This document shows, in pieces, positions 11,277-28,639 of a stretch of DNA of 28,898 nt; positions within the stretch are counted from its first letter, which is position 1; each line of letters begins with the position of its first letter. The notes under the pieces are model-generated. The model was not told where the DNA came from. It was given only the letters and a program-made list of their open reading frames with translations, and made no database searches. The stretch is taken from positions 1-28,898 of IMG/VR virus record IMGVR_UViG_3300017735_000073, one strand, 5' to 3'. The stretch is from a virus. Both the position numbers and the translations under genes were made by a program.

Positions 11277-12539
11277 TTAGTAAGGAGATTCTACTTCATC
11301 AGTATTAAACAAATCTTCATTCTCTGGAACCTCACCCAAAAACTTTTGGATGAATTGTTTCATATAAACTCTTTCAGACTGAGCCCCACCACTTTGGTCA
11401 AACATTGGGTAGATAGTAATCTCAGCAGCTTCACCTAATTCGAAACCATCGTAGAGTAGAGAACCAATCTCAACTGCCGTTCTCGTAGACAATGCGTTAC
11501 TAAGTTTTGGATTTTCAGACATCAAGTCACCTCTTGTCATTGAAGTAATCTCAGCAACATTAGACAAAATGTTTTCATCAACCGAAGGATACATCATTTG
11601 AAGAAGTTGAGTTTCCTCTTCGTGAGTTAGAGTGTCCATTTCGATAACAGTAAATCTGTCTAACATCGCTCTGTCAAGAGCTCTTGTAGCGGTGTACTCA
11701 TTACCGATGTTAGCCGATGCGATGAACGAAACACCATCAGCGACCTTGACAACAGGAGCGTTAGCCGCTTCATCTAATCTCAAGTATCTTTGACCTTGGT
11801 CAAGAACCGTCATTAGAATATTGTGAGCCTCAGGGTGAGCTCTCGTCAACTCATCAAGGATGATAACAGTATTTGGTGTTTGAATCGCCTTAACAAAAGG
11901 TGAAGTGTTGAACACCGTACCTTGTTTGGAATCGAACTGAGTGTTACCAATCAGAGTTGTTCTTGGGTCTTGAGTAGAACCAAGGTTGATGATGAAGGTG
12001 TTGTAACCTTCGAGTGAATTAGCCGCTGCTTTAGCCGCCATAGTTTTACCACAACCGGCAGGGCCAGTCATCATAATGTTTTTACCTCTAAGAATGTTTC
12101 TTACTAAGTACTTCCACTTTAGGGACTGCATGAATAACATCTTAGGTTTTAGACCTTCTGACTTTTCGTGAATGAAACTAAGAACATCAGAAGTCATCGC
12201 TTCAGTAGCGACAGAGACAGGTTCAGGTTTAGAATACTCAAGAGCGACAAGACCGCCATTAGGAGCGGTGAAGTTACCAACTGGCTCAAGGTTTTCTTCT
12301 ACCTTAGATGCCGGAACTCTTGTGAAGTCAATCTTACCATCAGTTAGTCTACCACTAACTCTAACTTTGAACCCATACTTGTCGGGTCTTTTGAAGGATT
12401 GTCTTACCCTTTTGTAAAGGTTAGTACCTTCTTCATTGAACTCAGGAATCAAGAACTGCTTTCCTGCCGAATCTTCAAATAGAAACTTTCCATCTACTTG
12501 AACAATCTTTCCGAATACTGATTTTTGTGCTTTCATCAT
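11277..12539 (-). CDS. MoxR-type AAA+ ATPase
   Basis: A 420-residue protein. An N-terminal beta-rich region (1-80) precedes the AAA+ module: Walker A GPAGCGKT (159-166), Walker B VIILDE (224-229), sensor-1 Asn in ASANIG (N277), and arginine-finger candidates in TATRALDRAMLDRF. The length of the Walker B helix and the LDRF ending are typical of the MoxR/CbbQ/CobS group. Such ATPases work with VWA-domain partners as remodelling or chelatase machines, and the VWA partner lies directly upstream (12636-14783). Phage homologues are often labelled CobS, but no cobalamin gene is seen here. Its promoter (12584-12639) is of the TTAAC class. Confidence 0.9.
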   Translation of the reverse strand: MMKAQKSVFGKIVQVDGKFLFEDSAGKQFLIPEFNEEGTNLYKRVRQSFKRPDKYGFKVRVSGRLTDGKIDFTRVPASKVEENLEPVGNFTAPNGGLVALEYSKPEPVSVATEAMTSDVLSFIHEKSEGLKPKMLFMQSLKWKYLVRNILRGKNIMMTGPAGCGKTMAAKAAANSLEGYNTFIINLGSTQDPRTTLIGNTQFDSKQGTVFNTSPFVKAIQTPNTVIILDELTRAHPEAHNILMTVLDQGQRYLRLDEAANAPVVKVADGVSFIASANIGNEYTATRALDRAMLDRFTVIEMDTLTHEEETQLLQMMYPSVDENILSNVAEITSMTRGDLMSENPKLSNALSTRTAVEIGSLLYDGFELGEAAEITIYPMFDQSGGAQSERVYMKQFIQKFLGEVPENEDLFNTDEVESPY

Positions 12540-12583: not shown

Positions 12584-12639
12584 CTAAAGTACGACATTAA
12601 TTTGACAATTCCAAATTTCTAATGTTAAGAAATTGTTAA
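12584..12639 (-). promoter_or_regulatory. TTAAC-class promoter for the MoxR-type ATPase
   Basis: Minus-strand TTAAC half-sites lie at 12635-12639 and 12624-12628; TTTG at 12612-12615 after 8 bases; 20-base spacer; TACTTTAG at 12584-12591. GTCAAA follows the TTTGG box by four bases. The first half-site contains the TAA stop of the VWA gene. Confidence 0.8.
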
Positions 12640-14783
12640 ATTTTCACCTCGAACTTTTTATTTAATGTTTTGGCTAACTGAGTCATGTTATCAACATTGA
12701 TAAACTCTGAGTCCTTTCCGTACATTTCCTCAAACTGAGTCTTACTACTTCCATAGTATCCATCAGAGATAAAGTAAGATAGGACACCGACACCTGCGTT
12801 TCTAACTTTCTTAACTTGGTCAGCCGTATGTTTTACTGCGTAGTCACCACCATAACTAATTTCTTTGTTGTCAAAGCCAGGCCATCCATCTGAGAAATTG
12901 ATTAGGTAACTTTCTACGCCATTTTTTGTATTGGTCAACTCTTTTAGAATCGCTTCAAAACACAACCCTTCAGGAGTAGTTCCACTTGGTGAAATGTATT
13001 TAAACAAGTTTACAATTTTAGAAAACTTATCTTTTCTTGAATCATATGCAATCATCATTAGAGGTTGACATCCACTTCCACTATTGTAGTAGATACCTCT
13101 ATAAGAAATCACTACATTCATATTGTCGGTCATCGATGCCGCCTTTGCAATCGCTACGGCTGCCGTTTGAGTGTTGTACCACTTGTCACCACCCATAGAA
13201 GAACTTGCGTCAATCGAGATGTGTACTAAACAAGGAGTCGCCGTATTGATATTGATTTGGTCAAAGATTTGGAAGTTACCGAAACCAATCTCGTGTAACA
13301 TTCTACCATTTAACTTACCACTCTTCATTCTTGGAGTGTTGTCGATTCTCTCTTCGTTTCTTGTCTTAAGTTTCTTACCTAAGATAGTTCCAAGTGTAAT
13401 ACCTTTTCTAACTGCCGTATCGTTTGAATCAACTCTCCAACTTCCTAAGTGACCAATCATACCTGAGTCAATCAATGATTGATTTACATTTCTGATTACA
13501 TAGGTCTGAACACCTTGAGATTGATTTCTCCAATAACCTTGGTCAAGTCCTTTGCCTGTAACCTCAGTTTCGATATCAGCTTTATCAAGAACATCGATTT
13601 TCTTTTTGTCAGCCTTAGTGATTGTAGTTTTTTTGATATCACCATCTAAGAACTTCTTTTGTTTCTCGATAGCGTTATCTAACATTTTCTTTTGTTTATC
13701 ATTCAAAGGTTGGTAGTCACCGCCAGCACCATTCTTGTTACCGAGGCCAGTTGGTTGAGGACTACCTTCTTCGGTAGAACCATCATCCTTACCATCATCA
13801 CCCTTAGAGTCTTTACCTTTACCACTTCCGTTACCTTCCATTGGTGAACCATCAGAAGTTGGATTGTCATCAGAAGACATCTCAGACTTACCATTAGTAT
13901 CATTGTCATCACCACCCATTTCTTTTTCAGATGACTTAGATTCATACTCAGCGTCTTGTACATTTTCGTGGATAATCATATAAATCTGACCTGCCACTTC
14001 GAGTGCGTCATTTGATGTTCTTAGTCTTGAAATATTTTTAAGGTCAAGAAGATTCCAAATCTGTTTCAATCCTTTAAGAGCTTTGAGGTCTCTGTTAGAG
14101 TTAGTGATGTTAATCAATCTAAACATATAAGAATCCCAAGTCTCGTCTCTATGTTCTGAAGACTTAAGACCTTTGTCCACTACATTAGAGTGGAAGTACT
14201 TGTTATACATTGACTCATAGTACCCTCTATAACCAGGCGCTGATTTGTAAATGTAATTGTCAATTCGTCTGTCCTCAACATAGTTAAGTAAATCTTTTAA
14301 CTTACTTACAATGTCTCTTCTTTTTGACCACCATGCGGTAGAATACTCATCACCATCTTCAACCATTTGAATATATGATGATAAAGTTTTTACCCAAGGT
14401 AACATAGATTTTGGAAACCCTTGAAGACCATTGTTGTCCATCAGAGTTTTTAACATTTCGAAGTCAGTAAGTTTGATGTGAGAACCTTCGTGAAGTGCTA
14501 ACCCAACCACAGGGTCGAATTCTTTGTCATTCATTTTAGCTGATATAACAACCTCTTTACCATCGGTGTAACTATCATCACCCCTACCATTAAAGGTAAC
14601 GGGAATAGGTTGGCCTGTAACGATACTAACGAAGTTACTGATTGACTTTTTGTATGCCATCAACTTCATTAAGTCATTAGACTTCTTCTCAATTTTGTTA
14701 GGTTCATTATCCGTATCCCATATTGACTTGTCAAGCCAGAAGGAAGAATAATTCATGTGGTTTGTATTTCGCATAATTCTCAT
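12636..14783 (-). CDS. VWA-domain protein with N-terminal HExxH metallopeptidase-like region
   Basis: A 715-residue protein. The N-terminal domain carries VVGLALHEGSHIKLTDFE, a HExxH zinc motif (H98, E99, H102), and a downstream LNYVEDRRIDNYI that could give a third ligand (E170). Residues about 280-350 are a low-complexity Asp/Gly/Ser/Lys linker. The C-terminal VWA domain has a MIDAS motif HISIDASSSMGG (D525, S527, S529) with the supporting Thr in SPSGTTPEG and Asp in NFSDGWPG. MoxR plus VWA pairs form ATP-driven metal-insertion or remodelling complexes; here the VWA subunit may also be a protease. Its start is preceded by promoter 14801-14856. CobT-like is the common alternative label. Confidence 0.88.
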   Translation of the reverse strand: MRIMRNTNHMNYSSFWLDKSIWDTDNEPNKIEKKSNDLMKLMAYKKSISNFVSIVTGQPIPVTFNGRGDDSYTDGKEVVISAKMNDKEFDPVVGLALHEGSHIKLTDFEMLKTLMDNNGLQGFPKSMLPWVKTLSSYIQMVEDGDEYSTAWWSKRRDIVSKLKDLLNYVEDRRIDNYIYKSAPGYRGYYESMYNKYFHSNVVDKGLKSSEHRDETWDSYMFRLINITNSNRDLKALKGLKQIWNLLDLKNISRLRTSNDALEVAGQIYMIIHENVQDAEYESKSSEKEMGGDDNDTNGKSEMSSDDNPTSDGSPMEGNGSGKGKDSKGDDGKDDGSTEEGSPQPTGLGNKNGAGGDYQPLNDKQKKMLDNAIEKQKKFLDGDIKKTTITKADKKKIDVLDKADIETEVTGKGLDQGYWRNQSQGVQTYVIRNVNQSLIDSGMIGHLGSWRVDSNDTAVRKGITLGTILGKKLKTRNEERIDNTPRMKSGKLNGRMLHEIGFGNFQIFDQININTATPCLVHISIDASSSMGGDKWYNTQTAAVAIAKAASMTDNMNVVISYRGIYYNSGSGCQPLMMIAYDSRKDKFSKIVNLFKYISPSGTTPEGLCFEAILKELTNTKNGVESYLINFSDGWPGFDNKEISYGGDYAVKHTADQVKKVRNAGVGVLSYFISDGYYGSSKTQFEEMYGKDSEFINVDNMTQLAKTLNKKFEVKI

Positions 14784-16492: not shown

Positions 16493-16506
16493 AATAAAAT
16501 TTATTG

Positions 16507-16578
16507 TAGCCCCTAGGAGAATCGAACTCCTCTTTCCAGGATGAAAACCTGGCGTCCTAACCGATAGACGAAGGGGCC
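16507..16578 (-). tRNA. tRNA-Glu(TTC)
   Basis: A 72-nt cloverleaf: 7-bp acceptor stem (GGCCCCT with AGGGGCT, one G-U), a T-arm with canonical TTCGATT loop, and an anticodon arm CCAGG-TTTTCAT-CCTGG giving TTC. The discriminator is A73 and CCA is not encoded. It follows two tRNA-like RNAs and precedes the methyltransferase gene on the same strand. Confidence 0.95.
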
Positions 16579-16588
16579 AGTATATTAG

Positions 16589-16660
16589 AGCGGAAAGGTG
16601 GAACTGCCCCACCATCTCCACATTGGTAATGTGGCGAGTTTCTTTTAACTCTTTTCCCGC
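16589..16660 (-). ncRNA. tRNA-like RNA 1, glycine-type identity elements, non-canonical loops
   Basis: A 72-nt sequence folds with tRNA geometry: acceptor GCGGGAA/TTTCCGC (7 bp), two bases, D-arm GAGT/ACTC, one base, anticodon arm CCACA/TGTGG with loop TTACCAA (positions 34-36 ACC), four-base variable region, T-arm GGTGG/CCACC and U73. G1-C72, C2-G71, G3-C70, C35, C36 and U73 are the known bacterial glycine identity set. The D-loop (TAAAAGAA) lacks GG and the T-loop (GGCAGTT) lacks TTCRA. Bases 32 and 38 can also pair, leaving a five-base loop. It may be charged with glycine but not work normally in translation. Confidence 0.7.
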
Positions 16661-16664
16661 TTAG

Positions 16665-16736
16665 AGCGGAAGGTTGGAACTGCCCCAACTCCTTTGTACT
16701 GGATGTACAACGACTTTCTTTTAAGTCTTCTCCCGC
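16665..16736 (-). ncRNA. tRNA-like RNA 2, paralogue of RNA 1, anticodon position TCC
   Basis: A 72-nt copy four bases upstream of RNA 1 with identical geometry and identical D-loop (TAAAAGAA) and T-loop (GGCAGTT), but changed stems that all still pair: acceptor GCGGGAG/CTTCCGC, D-arm GACT/AGTC, anticodon arm TTGTA/TACAA with loop CATCCAG, T-arm GTTGG/CCAAC, U73. The compensatory changes prove selection for structure. Position 33 is A instead of the near-universal U. The -7 box of promoter 16747-16778 ends 10 bases before its 5' end, so this RNA is the first product of the transcript. Confidence 0.7.
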
Positions 16737-16746
16737 GATTGTTTAC

Positions 16747-16778
16747 ACAATATACAAAATAAAATTGACATGGCCAAA
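16747..16778 (-). promoter_or_regulatory. Promoter of the tRNA-like/tRNA-Glu array, -33 TTTGG / -7 TATATTGT
   Basis: Minus-strand TTTG at 16775-16778 and TATATTGT at 16747-16754, spacer 20. GTCAAT follows TTTGG by four bases. It lies between tRNA-Ala and tRNA-like RNA 2 and fixes the direction of the array as minus. Confidence 0.75.
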
Positions 16779-16785
16779 TTTTTAG

Positions 16786-16859
16786 TGGAGAATATCGGAG
16801 TCGAACCGATGACCTCTTCGGTGCAAGCGAAGCGCTCTAGCCATCTGAGCTAATTCCCC
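16786..16859 (-). tRNA. tRNA-Ala(TGC)
   Basis: A 74-nt cloverleaf: acceptor GGGGAAT/ATTCTCC (one G-U), D-arm with AGCTCAGATGGCTAGAGC including GG, anticodon arm CTTCG-CTTGCAC-CGAAG giving TGC, T-loop TTCGACT, and discriminator A73. CCA is not encoded. Unlike the two RNAs downstream it has fully normal loops. Confidence 0.95.
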
Positions 16860-20879: not shown

Positions 20880-21166
20880 TACATTAATGTTTTAATAAAG
20901 TGGATGGTCCATGCCATTAGTCCGTTCAGTTGTAATACAACTAAGTTCCATTGTTTCTTAACAAATACTTGAACTAATACACAAATAAATCCTATTATAA
21001 ATAATACGGGTTCAACAGTCCATTGTCCTGCCATCAAGAATCCTGCTCCCATATAACCAACTCTTGATGACATCCTTTCGGATGCCGTAAGCTTTCTTTC
21101 TTTAACGAGAGTCTCTAAAAACTTTCGCCATGCTTTTATCCTTAAGGTTTTCTTTTTAGATTTCAT
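20879..21166 (-). CDS. Small membrane protein
   Basis: A 95-residue protein. The N-terminus is strongly basic (KSKKKTLRIKAWRKF); hydrophobic stretches around residues 37-46, 52-67 and 72-90 suggest two or three membrane helices. No family is recognised. It overlaps the flavodoxin-like gene by 11 bases and the exported-protein gene by one base. Confidence 0.7.
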   Translation of the reverse strand: MKSKKKTLRIKAWRKFLETLVKERKLTASERMSSRVGYMGAGFLMAGQWTVEPVLFIIGFICVLVQVFVKKQWNLVVLQLNGLMAWTIHFIKTLM

Positions 21167-21743
21167 ATCCTAAATCTCTTCTAATATCTTTTTTAACAAC
21201 TTGTAAATACTTCCATCGTTTCTTATCATTCACAAATGGTACAGACCAAAATTGTTTTGTCTTACGCCATCTTGAAAATTTCCATCCAAACACAAATGAG
21301 AATACACCTAGCACCAATCTCAACTTGACTGAGTTGAGATATAAGGTTCTAACAGGTAGACTTGGTGCTCCATGTGTGATGTAGGTTCTAACTTTCTTAT
21401 CCTTTAGGAATGGCTTTGGATATGCATATAGTTTAGTAAAGTTAACAAACTTATATGCGAACCCTGGCGTCAATACTTCGTCAAAAAATATTTCCATTCT
21501 TGGAGTTAATCTAAACCACCATACAGGTGATATAAAATAAATTCTATCAGACCATGTTATTAAGTCTTGATAACCCTTCATTAATTTAGTTCTTGGTGTA
21601 CTATAATTGTCACGATATAAATCAATGATTTTAAGTTGTTCTTTATCCTTATGCTTTTTCAGTTCTCGTTTAAGAGTCTTGAGAATACCATTGTAACAGA
21701 ATGACTTCTTGTCAGGATGTCCTATAACTATTAGATTCTTCAT
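21156..21743 (-). CDS. Flavodoxin-like NAD(P)H oxidoreductase (KefF/NQO1 family)
   Basis: A 195-residue protein of the Flavodoxin_2 family. KNLIVIGHPDKKSFCYNGIL at the start is the FMN/FAD phosphate loop (GHPxxxSF), SDRIYFISPVWWFRLTPRMEIFFDEVL is the hallmark (P-x-W-W-x-x-x-P), and FAYKF plus an ITHGAP segment follow. The enzyme reduces quinones or similar compounds with NAD(P)H. It is coupled to thyA by a one-base overlap, so it might serve redox needs during nucleotide synthesis, but this is inference. Confidence 0.88.
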   Translation of the reverse strand: MKNLIVIGHPDKKSFCYNGILKTLKRELKKHKDKEQLKIIDLYRDNYSTPRTKLMKGYQDLITWSDRIYFISPVWWFRLTPRMEIFFDEVLTPGFAYKFVNFTKLYAYPKPFLKDKKVRTYITHGAPSLPVRTLYLNSVKLRLVLGVFSFVFGWKFSRWRKTKQFWSVPFVNDKKRWKYLQVVKKDIRRDLGYEI

Positions 21744-22627
21744 TAGTTGTTTAAAGGTGCTTTAATTCTTGGGTGTGACTGATAGTTGATTAATTCATAA
21801 TCAAACTCCCCATTCATTATATCTACATTAGATACCTTTAGTTGTGGTAAGTCATAACCAATTCTTGTTATTTGTTCTTTTGCTTGTTCAATATGATTAT
21901 TGTATATGTGTACATCACCAAGCGAACCAATCAGTTGGCCAGGTTTGTATCCAGTTTCTTCACATAGTAATAGTAATAGTGTACCATACGATGCTATGTT
22001 GAAAGGTAACCCAAGGAAGACATCAACGCTTCGCTGATTCCATTTAAGTGATAACTTGTTTTCTGAGTCTACATAACATTGGAATCCATAATGACAGGGA
22101 GGTAGTTTCATTAAGGAAAGTTCTGAGACATTCCATGCGCTGACAAGGTGTCGTCTTCCATGTGGGTCTTCTTTCAATGATTTAATTAAGTTTTTAATTT
22201 GGTCATGACCATCCCAATTCTTCCATTGTTTACCATAGATAAATCCAAGGTTACCCCATTGTTTTGAGAAGTCATCATCCTCTAATATTTTTTGTTCGAA
22301 TTCTTTGACATCGTATTCAGGGTCTTCTAAGTCCCAATGATGTACTCGTTCATATACTTTGTATGCATCGCCAGTCCAGATGTGACAATTGTTTTGTAAC
22401 AAGTATCTCAAATCAGTCCTACCTTTTAAGAACCATTTAAGTTCAGTCATCACAGATTTGACTGCCATCTTCTTGGTAGTTAACAAAGGAAACCCGTCAC
22501 ACATACAATGTCTGATTGTGTAATCAAATAAAGATTTAGTTCCGTAGCCAGTTCTGTCGGGCTTATCGTAACCGATATCTAAAATTTCGTCTATTAGGTC
22601 TATGTATTGACTATCTATTCTATTCAT
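21743..22627 (-). CDS. thyA: Thymidylate synthase (ThyA)
   Basis: A 294-residue thymidylate synthase. Key motifs are the N-terminal DRTGYGTKSLF, the folate-contact WFLKGRTDLRYL, the phosphate-binding DPHGRRHLVSAWN, the catalytic Cys in KLPPCHYGFQCYV (C178) and QRSVDVFLGLPFNIASYG, then HIYNNH. It converts dUMP to dTMP with methylenetetrahydrofolate to feed phage DNA synthesis. The length is close to the usual 264-290, with a small insert around 95-125. It is the first gene after promoter 22644-22675. Confidence 0.97.
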   Translation of the reverse strand: MNRIDSQYIDLIDEILDIGYDKPDRTGYGTKSLFDYTIRHCMCDGFPLLTTKKMAVKSVMTELKWFLKGRTDLRYLLQNNCHIWTGDAYKVYERVHHWDLEDPEYDVKEFEQKILEDDDFSKQWGNLGFIYGKQWKNWDGHDQIKNLIKSLKEDPHGRRHLVSAWNVSELSLMKLPPCHYGFQCYVDSENKLSLKWNQRSVDVFLGLPFNIASYGTLLLLLCEETGYKPGQLIGSLGDVHIYNNHIEQAKEQITRIGYDLPQLKVSNVDIMNGEFDYELINYQSHPRIKAPLNN

Positions 22628-25321: not shown

Positions 25322-25377
25322 TAAAAGTACGCAAAACATTTGACTTTTCCAAATTTTCAATGTTAAGAAATTGTTAA
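25322..25377 (-). promoter_or_regulatory. TTAAC-class promoter for the metallopeptidase-like gene
   Basis: Minus-strand TTAAC at 25373-25377 and 25362-25366; TTTG at 25350-25353 after 8 bases; 20-base spacer; TACTTTTA at 25322-25329. GTCAAA follows TTTGG by four bases. The first half-site holds the TAA stop of the gene 25374-26774. Confidence 0.8.
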
Positions 25378-26774
25378 ATTTTACCTACAATCTTTGGACC
25401 TGATAGAGCCATCTCTACATAACCAAACTCTGGATACCTAAGTAGGTGTTCCATCTCGTCATAGTAAACCTTGTCCAAGTGTTGTGGTCTCGTTAACCTC
25501 ATCCATAACTTAGTCCAGTTCTTCTGATTCTTAATCGTGTTGTGATATACAACTACTTTGATTCGAGTCTGTACTGACTTCCCACTAGCGATTCTCTGAA
25601 CTTGTTCACTAATGTACTTGTCCATCCATCTATCAAGAGTCGGTGCACCTGATGCGCCATAGATAACAAACACATCATCGTTAGTTAGTCTTGCAACTTT
25701 CTTCAAGACTAAATCCTTGTGAGTGTCTTCGTAATCATAAACCATTTGATTACTATCTTCCAACTTCTTCTTGTCGAGGTTGTCTTGTACTTTGTCAAAT
25801 ACACCATCAACTTGTCCTGATGTTAATCCCATCAACATGAATCGTTGTCTCATACCAATAGTCTTCCACGAGTGTCCTGCCTTGTGGTGTTCCATACACT
25901 CATCAATAGCATCTTGTTTACTGAATGACTTACCTACATTAAAGTCTGCGTTGAGGTTATTACCCAACATCTGAACTTCAGTCTCTTGCATCAGAGAGTG
26001 AATGTCCTCATCAAGTATGAGACACTTTATCATAGTGTTCTCGGTGTGACCGATGTTCTCATCTCTCGTCTTCCAATATGCAGTCCTTGTGTGATTACCA
26101 CTAATAAGGATTAACTCATAAAACTGACCATTGATAGTGACATCCTTTAATAATACAGGCATATCGTAGTTACCGATTTTGTTTCTTAACCTATCAACAA
26201 TCTTTGATAGATTGTCGTGGTCTATCTCAAGTTTACGAACTTGCCACTTATCTGTGTGGTACAAATCCTTGACAGACATTTCAACAATGTGTGTCTCGTT
26301 AATGTATTCAAGTTCTGAATCTAAGATGAGGTTGGTGTGTTTACGAAAGTCATCGAGTTCCACCATCAAGGTGTTTACTAACTTCATGTTCAGTTCCTTC
26401 TTACCAGGATGACCATTGTGTTTGTTGTAGTACTTAGGATTGTTCTTAGCGTCAACCTTTGTCAACAACTCATACTCAACTTGTTTACACTCTTCTACCG
26501 AACCCCAATATAGGATATGGTATTCGAATAAACCAACTGCGTCACTTGCGAGAAGTTCTTTGAACACTTTGTTAGTAGATGATGTACCATAGAGTTTGTT
26601 ACCTTCTTTGTGGTAACCAATGTAAATCATCTTGTCTTGTGTATTGACTATCATATACACATAAGAGTTACAACCATTTTTTGTACGAGGCCCTTCAGGT
26701 CGTAAGAAGATTTCGGGCCTTGTGGTATCGTCAAACATTAGTTCGAGATTCCATCCATTAGCTGTTCTAGCCAT
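25374..26774 (-). CDS. GIY-YIG-like and ParB-like fusion protein
   Basis: A 466-residue protein. Residues about 35-120 look like a GIY-YIG nuclease module: YVYMIVNTQDKMIYIGYH holds the paired Y-x-Y and Y-I-G elements (38-40, 51-53), and VEECKQVEYELLTK offers a catalytic Glu (E100), although the usual Arg is not evident. Residues about 165-240 resemble a ParB/sulfiredoxin fold: MSVKDLYHTDKWQVR, then ELILISGNHTRTAYWK with the GNHxR signature. The last 200 residues are helical and unassigned. Such a protein could be a DNA-targeting nuclease with nucleotide binding. It follows promoter 26829-26860. Confidence 0.65.
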   Translation of the reverse strand: MARTANGWNLELMFDDTTRPEIFLRPEGPRTKNGCNSYVYMIVNTQDKMIYIGYHKEGNKLYGTSSTNKVFKELLASDAVGLFEYHILYWGSVEECKQVEYELLTKVDAKNNPKYYNKHNGHPGKKELNMKLVNTLMVELDDFRKHTNLILDSELEYINETHIVEMSVKDLYHTDKWQVRKLEIDHDNLSKIVDRLRNKIGNYDMPVLLKDVTINGQFYELILISGNHTRTAYWKTRDENIGHTENTMIKCLILDEDIHSLMQETEVQMLGNNLNADFNVGKSFSKQDAIDECMEHHKAGHSWKTIGMRQRFMLMGLTSGQVDGVFDKVQDNLDKKKLEDSNQMVYDYEDTHKDLVLKKVARLTNDDVFVIYGASGAPTLDRWMDKYISEQVQRIASGKSVQTRIKVVVYHNTIKNQKNWTKLWMRLTRPQHLDKVYYDEMEHLLRYPEFGYVEMALSGPKIVGKI

Positions 26775-26828
26775 AATTTAAGTTTTAAAATTTATAATTA
26801 ACCGCCTGCCTTTCTGACAAACTTAGTA

Positions 26829-26860
26829 CTAATATACAACAATAAAATTTAACTGGCAAG
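26829..26860 (-). promoter_or_regulatory. Promoter, -33 CTTG / -7 TATATTAG, 20-base spacer
   Basis: Minus-strand CTTG at 26857-26860 and TATATTAG at 26829-26836, spacer 20. It precedes the GIY-YIG/ParB-like gene by 55 bases. Confidence 0.65.
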
Positions 26861-26864
26861 CTTT

Positions 26865-28335: not shown

Positions 28336-28386
28336 ATTATTGATTTATTAATTGACATCTCATTATGGGGAGATGAATACCCTTAG

Positions 28387-28472
28387 TACCGATGGGCGGA
28401 TTCGAACCGCCACGAACATTACTGCTCAAAGGATTTTAAGTCCTTCGTGTCTACCAGTTTCACCACATCGGC
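28387..28472 (-). tRNA. tRNA-Leu(TAA)
   Basis: An 86-nt class II tRNA with a long variable arm. Acceptor GCCGATG/CATCGGT (G1-U72 wobble), anticodon arm AAGGA-CTTAAAA-TCCTT giving TAA, T-loop TTCGAAT, discriminator A73; CCA not encoded. Reads UUA, the Leu codon expected to be frequent in AT-rich phage genes. Confidence 0.95.
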
Positions 28473-28480
28473 ATCTCGTG

Positions 28481-28554
28481 TGTTCCCAATAGGACTCGAA
28501 CCTATGACCTAATCATTATGAGTGATTTGCTCTAACCAACTGAGCTATGAGAAC
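28481..28554 (-). tRNA. tRNA-Met(CAT), elongator type (or Ile2)
   Basis: A 74-nt cloverleaf: acceptor GTTCTCA/TGGGAAC, anticodon arm AATCA-CTCATAA-TGATT giving CAT, T-loop TTCGAGT, discriminator A73. G1-C72 is paired, so it is not an initiator tRNA. A lysidine-modified Ile2 tRNA would look the same in DNA and cannot be excluded. Confidence 0.9.
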
Positions 28555-28565
28555 GACAACGATAG

Positions 28566-28639
28566 TGAACGAGACAGGATTCGAACCTGTGACCGTCTGC
28601 TTAGAAGGCAGATGCTCTATCCAACTGAGCTACTCGTCC
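28566..28639 (-). tRNA. tRNA-Arg(TCT)
   Basis: A 74-nt cloverleaf: acceptor GGACGAG/CTCGTTC (one G-U), anticodon arm TCTGC-CTTCTAA-GCAGA giving TCT, T-loop TTCGAAT, discriminator A73; CCA not encoded. It reads AGA, a rich codon in these genes. It is the first gene after the promoter at 28659-28690. Confidence 0.95.

Follow-up and report, generated by a model that had tools for sequence, protein, structure and literature searches.

The window, a virus record of 28,898 bases, holds on its minus strand an open reading frame whose product is predicted to combine a GIY-YIG nuclease domain with a ParB-like body, an HTH-like segment and a C-terminal alpha/beta domain (Table 1). The preliminary description of this DNA had pointed to such a fusion of a GIY-YIG-like with a ParB-like domain, and its observation is real: the reading frame lies exactly as tabulated, with the Y-x-Y/YIG and GNHTR stretches at the positions claimed for them. 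The gene was also said to stand alone, which holds within the window, where it is separated by 90 bp from the upstream gene and by 62 bp from the downstream gene. Elsewhere the window carries five tRNA genes (28386-28639 and 16506-16859), those for Leu, Met and Arg in a row and those for Glu and Ala apart, as well as a thymidylate synthase gene that has one base in common with the start of a flavodoxin-fold gene (21156-22627). An AAA_5 ATPase gene adjoins a gene whose product matches VWA weakly, below cut-off (11277-12539 and 12636-14783); an AAA_5 gene (by Pfam) beside a VWA-like protein (by eye) is also found near relatives of the window gene in other phages.

Table 1. Position of the gene, its predicted domains and the surrounding insertion in the window
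Feature	Positions	Strand	Basis or remark
Whole reading frame, 466 aa (GIY-YIG + ParB-like + HTH-like + C-terminal alpha/beta)	25374..26774	minus	ATG start
Predicted GIY-YIG catalytic domain, aa 35-123 (Y40, Y51, G53, E100, N117)	26406..26672	minus	PHROG 314, I-TevI 1mk0, conservation
Predicted ParB/Srx-like domain, aa 160-278 (Q178-x-R180, GNHT 226-229, N275)	25941..26297	minus	ParB 6sdk and conservation
Helical segment, aa 286-340, in the place of the ParB/KorB HTH part	25755..25919	minus	KorB 8qa9 alignment, model helices
Predicted C-terminal alpha/beta domain, aa 345-466	25377..25742	minus	Separate model, no recognised fold
Inserted cassette, approximate	25380..26861	minus	Against the empty site of L212; edges uncertain by a few A residues
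Promoter-like site TTGCCA-17-TATATT, within the inserted segment	26831..26859	minus	Not above shuffle level

An unoccupied counterpart of the site

When the upstream GNAT gene was used as the query of a scan, one contig, L212, emerged in which the position of the window gene is unoccupied. In this contig of 74 kb the genes for a lipoprotein, a GNAT protein, a SprT-like protein and a protein of 138 aa follow each other in the same order as in the window, with 74 bp and no gene of the family between GNAT and SprT. The window protein finds no match anywhere in these 74 kb (which may be a fragment), while the same query recovers itself in the window. Since L212 has the same flanks only 74 bp apart and without the copy, the window copy can be regarded as an inserted cassette, and comparison of the junctions places the inserted segment from just past the GNAT stop codon into the last codons of the reading frame. 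At five other loci from the same scan (L208-L211 and L213) the GNAT gene has other surroundings, and the window protein is unmatched in all five. Presence and absence of the gene at an otherwise conserved site is thus seen with L212, and again in the empty slot of the glycosyltransferase loci described below.

The gene was also said to have its own promoter. A promoter-like site does lie upstream, inside the inserted segment, but the number of such sites around the window gene (8) does not exceed that in shuffled sequence (mean 10.5), and for the region upstream of the gene the scan statistic alone lends the site no support. The promoter-like stretch is common to the window and L207 (the re-fetched locus of the contig of L004, the closest distinct relative) and is absent from L212. 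An upstream inverted repeat, GCTTGCC/GGCAAGC in L207, was dropped, as a perfect 7-bp repeat also arose in 932 of 2000 shuffles.

Predicted domains of the protein

The nuclease-like part was detected by several libraries, although Pfam gave no significant match on the window protein itself. PHROG 314, annotated as 'homing endonuclease', matches aa 36-129 of the window protein with an E-value of 3e-10 and 22 of 28 aligned members with E-values up to 0.1 (two of the 28 have no GIY-YIG domain); the Pfam model SegE_GIY-YIG matches ten of the 28, with a best E-value of 6e-4, and the PADLOC homing endonuclease model PDLC03675 matches 4 of 10 members. In an AlphaFold2 model of the window protein (28 sequences, mean pLDDT 80.6), the top structural match by VIA-align is I-TevI (1mk0; Z 8.1, rmsd 3.1, 83 residues aligned, aa 35-123), and other GIY-YIG structures are also found, namely I-TevI 1ln0 (Z 7.9), PD-T4-3 (Z 6.0) and UvrC (Z about 5). 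The GIY-YIG-like domain named in the preliminary description is therefore well founded as a predicted fold. The Y-x-Y/YIG pattern itself consists of Y38, Y40 and Y51-I52-G53, and the 38 representatives that have the domain, which are 18-90% identical in pairwise comparison (median 36%), agree without exception in eight columns of aa 35-123: Y40, Y51, G53, Y62, S65, F71, E100 and N117. Three of these (Y40, Y51 and E100) had been singled out beforehand, and five (Y40, Y51, G53, E100 and N117) are what we take, from I-TevI, to be the canonical GIY-YIG motif residues; the chance that five given columns fall within 8 of 89 is ~1e-6, a rough guide that ignores structure. The first-helix arginine of I-TevI is R27. 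No conserved arginine was seen in the corresponding helix of the family, where the conserved basic residues are H55 (35/38) and K56 (34/38), side chains not having been superposed. By sequence, the GIY-YIG catalytic residues of the window protein are intact, and the protein probably cuts DNA.

The remaining structural matches point to the ParB/Srx fold. The second VIA-align row is KorB (8qa9; Z 8.0, rmsd 5.0, 146 residues aligned over aa 159-340) and the third is ParB (6sdk; Z 7.9, rmsd 2.8, 96 residues aligned), with sulfiredoxin and SbnI lower; according to the tool's own warning, a Z near 8 may reflect a common arrangement. Rows 2 to 26 comprise 20 ParB, KorB, Noc, PadC, sulfiredoxin or SbnI structures (Z 5.1-8.0), three GIY-YIG proteins and two hypothetical proteins, and unrelated proteins appear only below Z 5. 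The case for a two-domain fold is therefore built on two coherent sets of structural matches together with sequence, not on Z alone. Foldseek of the whole model against the PDB gave no match at 0.001 or better. Against viral models its first match is a protein of 341 aa, equal in length to a Synechococcus phage relative, followed mostly by GIY-YIG or homing endonucleases (some of them Seg-like), with phage partition and ParB-like proteins among the rest. Both folds that had been expected are accordingly seen in the AlphaFold2 model, and a GIY-YIG nuclease domain seated on a ParB-fold body is a highly probable description of the protein as modelled.

Conservation follows the ParB-like part as well. 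Q178, R180, G226 and N275 are invariant in all 41 representatives, and Q178 lies near the Q52 named in the title of 7bnr (in the aligned ranges, residue 162 of the model falls at residue 37 of the chain). The GNHTR stretch (226-230) highlighted in the preliminary description is conserved in its first three residues (G in 41/41, N in 40/41, H in 37/41), but the arginine is found in just 4 of 41; the motif of the family is better written DGNHT, with D225 in 37 of 41 and S in its place in the window protein. In our reading of the sequence, GNHT would be the counterpart of GERR, and N275 the asparagine of ParB ENxxR. Compared with ParB, KorB and Noc, the family thus has the predicted fold over aa 159-340, with Q-x-R and N at about matching places, but it differs in having GNHT for GERR, a fused nuclease and another C-terminal domain, and in the want of a ParB_N match: model PF02195 matched in none of 22 contigs including the window, and in 10 of 14 control genomes. 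Other comparisons were likewise negative. There was no match of the 28-row alignment to F-plasmid SopB by hhalign (weak evidence, SopB being a single divergent sequence), no sensible NCBIfam match in 10 members, no match of the family profile to the sequences of solved structures, and no match of GmrSD_N (PF03235) to the window protein at E up to 1.

Hence, of the ParB-like domain with a CTPase switch that had been envisaged, the predicted ParB/Srx fold stands (20 of 25 structural rows), and the ParB-type switch is supported neither by the motif, the place of GERR reading GNHT, nor by the ParB_N sequence model. Motifs of a similar kind have been described in other ParB/Srx proteins, such as DGHHR in ParB-type toxin domains (PMC3482391, in the text available) and DGQQR in GmrS, which a passage of PMC10952713 says forms an NTP pocket; given the resemblance of DGNHT to these, nucleotide binding of another kind is possible.

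The last ~120 aa would form a family-specific alpha/beta domain with no recognised fold, in which H411 is found in 41 of 41 and W420 in 40 of 41 representatives. Modelled alone, aa 338-466 reach a pLDDT of 82.6, and Foldseek of the C-terminal domain model found nothing under 0.001, an absence of structural match that does not establish a new fold. The best VIA match, a chain of the GATOR1/Gtr complex at Z 5.0, was considered too weak, and no fold is claimed from it. The 200 uncharacterised residues of the preliminary description are therefore only partly so, in that the alpha/beta domain is particular to the family but the helical part (~aa 286-340) resembles the second domain of ParB/KorB.

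Relatives and their neighbourhoods

The working set consists of 88 members, 78 of them full length, reduced to 41 representatives at 90% identity; the other 10 were left out because they were incomplete or disrupted or because no start was found. Six or more additional copies, found in the glycosyltransferase scan described below, lie outside the 88 (L128, L134, L157, L173, L175 and L176). One of the ten left out is a copy split into two reading frames (L011:2038-3355). Close relatives occur in viral contigs, in particular L003 (100% identical, the same virus or nearly) and L004 (90%), which carries the gene at the same position as the window. Distant relatives in the annotated phage collection are Marine virus AG-345-O18 and Synechococcus phage SynMITS9220M01, the only two records in searches of that collection that match beyond the GIY-YIG part. 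At the depth searched, relatives are confined to viral records: a scan of 84,980 bacterial and archaeal species (one genome each) with one degenerate pattern gave 114 matching stretches and no relative among them, and such a one-pattern scan could miss distant relatives. The libraries scanned hold no name of its own for the family.

While the GIY-YIG domain is present in 38 of the 41 representatives, the other three, namely the Synechococcus phage protein and two contigs of its kind, keep the ParB-like body and the C-terminal domain. These three form one clade (100/100), and the sister clade, joined to it at 100/100, has the domain under midpoint rooting, which fits a loss of the nuclease domain in the Synechococcus-phage clade.

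Clustering of the reading frames around the 41 representatives brought out several genes that are potentially linked to DNA modification. A putative GT-B-like glycosyltransferase (GT) gene lies near 22 of the 41 (directly upstream in 6, directly downstream in 15, and one gene away, downstream, in 1), its Pfam matches (Glycos_transf_1, Glyco_trans_1_2 and Glyco_transf_4) being weak and all below the curated cut-off. A DruA cluster is near 20 of 41 (PF14236 in the two members tested; DUF4338 is presumably the older name of DruA) and a Mom cluster near 10 of 41 (PF25680 in the member tested). In many GT-associated relatives, genes for DNA polymerase and the clamp loader also lie nearby. By profile search of 38 contigs, many of which are near relatives of each other so that the counts are not independent, GT is present in 23, Mom in 15, and a C5-methyltransferase and an alpha-glucosyltransferase in one each, on both occasions L072 (the short contigs L028, L012 and L015 were outside the lists for these last two). 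In L072 the genes for a C5-methyltransferase, a Tet_JBP-like oxygenase (28.2 bits, below the cut-off of 34.9) and a DNA alpha-glucosyltransferase (68 bits) are followed by the family gene, and L072:668-4022 is likely a cytosine hypermodification cassette. A C5-methyltransferase gene is directly downstream of the family member in L028, and N6/N4 or D12 methyltransferase genes are a few genes away in L006, L093, L034 and L012. None of GT, Mom or C5-methyltransferase was found in the contigs of the window (28.9 kb), L003 (32 kb), L004 (61 kb) and MH319757 (74 kb), which may be fragments. Two other neighbours were recorded: a phrog_15918 protein that contains RGNHR and is encoded immediately upstream of the family member and the C5-methyltransferase gene in L028 (L028:601-1872), and a separate, free-standing gene that by eye resembles a GIY-YIG homing endonuclease, one gene from the family member of L015 (L015:646-1518).

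The position beside GT was surveyed from the GT side. A GT profile scan gave 519 relatives, of which the best 80 were taken and 79 examined (L047 was already in the set). Among these best-scoring loci the family gene is within 4 kb of GT in 13 of 79, and in 12 of these 13 the two genes overlap or are at most 15 bp apart; DruA is seen upstream in 45. For these 45 loci from the best 80, the interval between DruA and GT is occupied by the family in 10, by other reading frames in 20 and by no gene in 15 (where it measures at most 54 bp); some intervals also hold a small nucleotidyltransferase gene. Seven of the 20 loci with other reading frames, together with L139, where a polymerase and not DruA is upstream, carry a GmrSD-type cluster just upstream of GT (L131, L139, L161, L171, L172, L177, L180 and L190; again among the best 80 of 519). 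Three of its eight members were tested by Pfam and all three gave GmrSD_N and HNH_4 matches, with GmrSD_N over cut-off in two and HNH_4 over cut-off in two. A published assignment places GmrS in the ParB/Srx fold (PMC4619093, in the part of the text available), and two nuclease types with a ParB/Srx module would therefore alternate beside GT. Profile comparison of the slot groups with the window family and with each other found no link.

Among the other occupants, the one in L163 is a second glycosyltransferase, and six others put to Pfam gave five without a match and one (L135) with a match at E 0.13. The sets L130/L168/L174, L133/L135/L136, L129/L144 and L141/L146 plus L145 looked ParB-like by short motifs seen by eye and were not counted as such. 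Proteins of the first set (L130:773-2008, L168:2044-3270 and L174:2779-4011) contain D(L/I/M)GHTR, and their C-terminal part looks PD-(D/E)XK-like by eye; two members tested had no Pfam match.

Possible roles of the gene

The reading placed first is that of a homing or exclusion endonuclease, i.e. a mobile, ParB/HTH-guided and catalytically intact GIY-YIG enzyme, for which the chances appear about even. It is placed first because of the presence and absence of the gene at set sites and its kinship with Seg-type enzymes; homing or exclusion is the simplest use to read into a virus-borne gene with this distribution. Binding would be separated from cutting as in I-TevI and the Seg enzymes, with the ParB/HTH body recognising certain sites or states of the DNA and the N-terminal domain cutting close by. 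The gene would move as a cassette that brings along its promoter-like stretch and is acquired or lost at defined positions between genes. Its targets would be the DNA of co-infecting phages, and perhaps of the host, where this is without the cassette or does not bear the modification of the phage itself, presumably to the carrier's benefit. With the Seg/I-TevI homing endonucleases the family has in common the catalytic fold, the Y/Y/G/E/N residues, carriage by phages and intergenic presence or absence, whereas its targeting would depend on a predicted ParB fold, an HTH-like segment and an unrecognised alpha/beta domain, and its homing is presumed. A further parallel is Odn (ICP1 Gp88), an origin-directed chimeric nuclease that in the available text of PMC8263062 is a phage GIY-YIG-superfamily domain combined with a foreign DNA-binding domain and acts against a rival element; it differs in having an N-terminal RepA_N domain and a C-terminal T5orf172 nuclease of GIY-YIG type, and that text mentions no ParB. 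What speaks against homing is that a gene packed against GT looks more like a member of an operon than a recent homing insert. Moreover, members of the Synechococcus-phage clade have the ParB-like body but no nuclease, so cutting would not be the sole useful function. The same three representatives favour the view that the protein is mainly a DNA-binding regulator or partition-like protein, with the nuclease domain a passenger or of use for autoregulation only, but the catalytic residues are invariant in all 38 others and this view is improbable.

The surveillance or host-DNA-degrading role offered in the preliminary description is possible in general terms, and a host-degrading factor like T4 endonuclease II, itself a GIY-YIG enzyme, might feed host nucleotides into phage DNA synthesis. 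Many GT-associated relatives have the gene in the company of replication genes (DNA polymerase, clamp loader), and there is the precedent of T4, in which endonucleases II and IV attack the cytosine-containing DNA of the host but leave DNA with hydroxymethylcytosine intact (PMC6071114, in the text available). Against such a host-degrading factor, the gene is absent from L212, which keeps the flanking genes, and the large ParB/HTH body would suggest specific rather than bulk cutting; this account is improbable. A modification-guarded nuclease akin to GmrSD is somewhat less doubtful, though still on the unlikely side: phage enzymes (GT, Mom, DruA-like proteins, methyltransferases) would mark the phage's own DNA, and the ParB-fold module would read the DNA state or a nucleotide and license GIY-YIG cutting of host or competitor DNA in the wrong state, a mechanism we hold to be equally tentative. 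The GT-B-like gene directly adjoins the family gene in 21 of 41 representatives and is one gene off in a 22nd, and the row of modification genes in L072, the C5-methyltransferase gene adjoining in L028, the Mom family in 15 of 38 contigs and the nearby N6/N4 or D12 methyltransferase genes all agree with such guarding, as do the GmrSD_N and HNH proteins that occupy the same slot elsewhere, GmrS having the ParB/Srx fold (PMC4619093, as above). However, GT occurs far more often than the gene, which 13 of 79 GT loci contain (from the best 80 of 519), so that adjacency may reflect a shared hot spot; all GT Pfam matches are below cut-off, C5-methyltransferase and alpha-glucosyltransferase are each in 1 of 38 contigs, and the possibly fragmentary contigs of the window, L003, L004 and MH319757 have no GT, Mom or C5-methyltransferase. 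GT adjacency was for this reason set aside as proof of function, given that just 13 of 79 GT loci (best 80 of 519) hold the gene and that GT is absent from the window contig and its closest relatives. GmrSD and DUF262-HNH Type IV enzymes resemble the family in having a ParB/Srx module and a nuclease in one protein, in occupying the same slot and in a DG-x-x motif; they differ in that their nuclease is C-terminal, where that of the window family is N-terminal, and belongs to another superfamily, and no profile link was found.

A broader version, which we consider unlikely, is that an exchangeable slot beside a modification cassette (GT, DruA-like, Mom) takes nucleases with a ParB/Srx switch, the modification marking self and the slot enzyme destroying DNA in the wrong state. 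It is just as uncertain whether these nucleases would comprise the GIY-YIG-ParB fusion, the GmrSD-type ParB-HNH proteins and perhaps others.

In the literature, no description of a GIY-YIG-ParB fusion was found among the open-licence PMC articles that the searches listed. In the portions available, SNIPE is a GIY-YIG nuclease whose study uses ParB just as a fluorescent marker (PMC13190303), DUF4338 is described as a GNAT domain and DndB as a member of the ParB superfamily (PMC10853773), and many phage CmoX contigs carry a ParBc protein whose function there is stated to be unknown (PMC12783734). The family numbers at least 41 distinct viral proteins and combines two modules that are each well studied; no other instance of this architecture came to light in the databases and literature searched. 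If the slot is indeed exchangeable in the manner outlined, (i) the virus would be armed with something like a restriction-modification system, directed at co-infecting phages and at the genome of the host, (ii) phages would run interchangeable restriction-like enzymes guarded by their own DNA modification and (iii) there would be a direct test of the role of ParB-like proteins in phage hypermodification clusters (PMC12783734, in the text available). If the gene is instead a homing or exclusion endonuclease, its ParB-like part would represent a new kind of targeting body for GIY-YIG nucleases.
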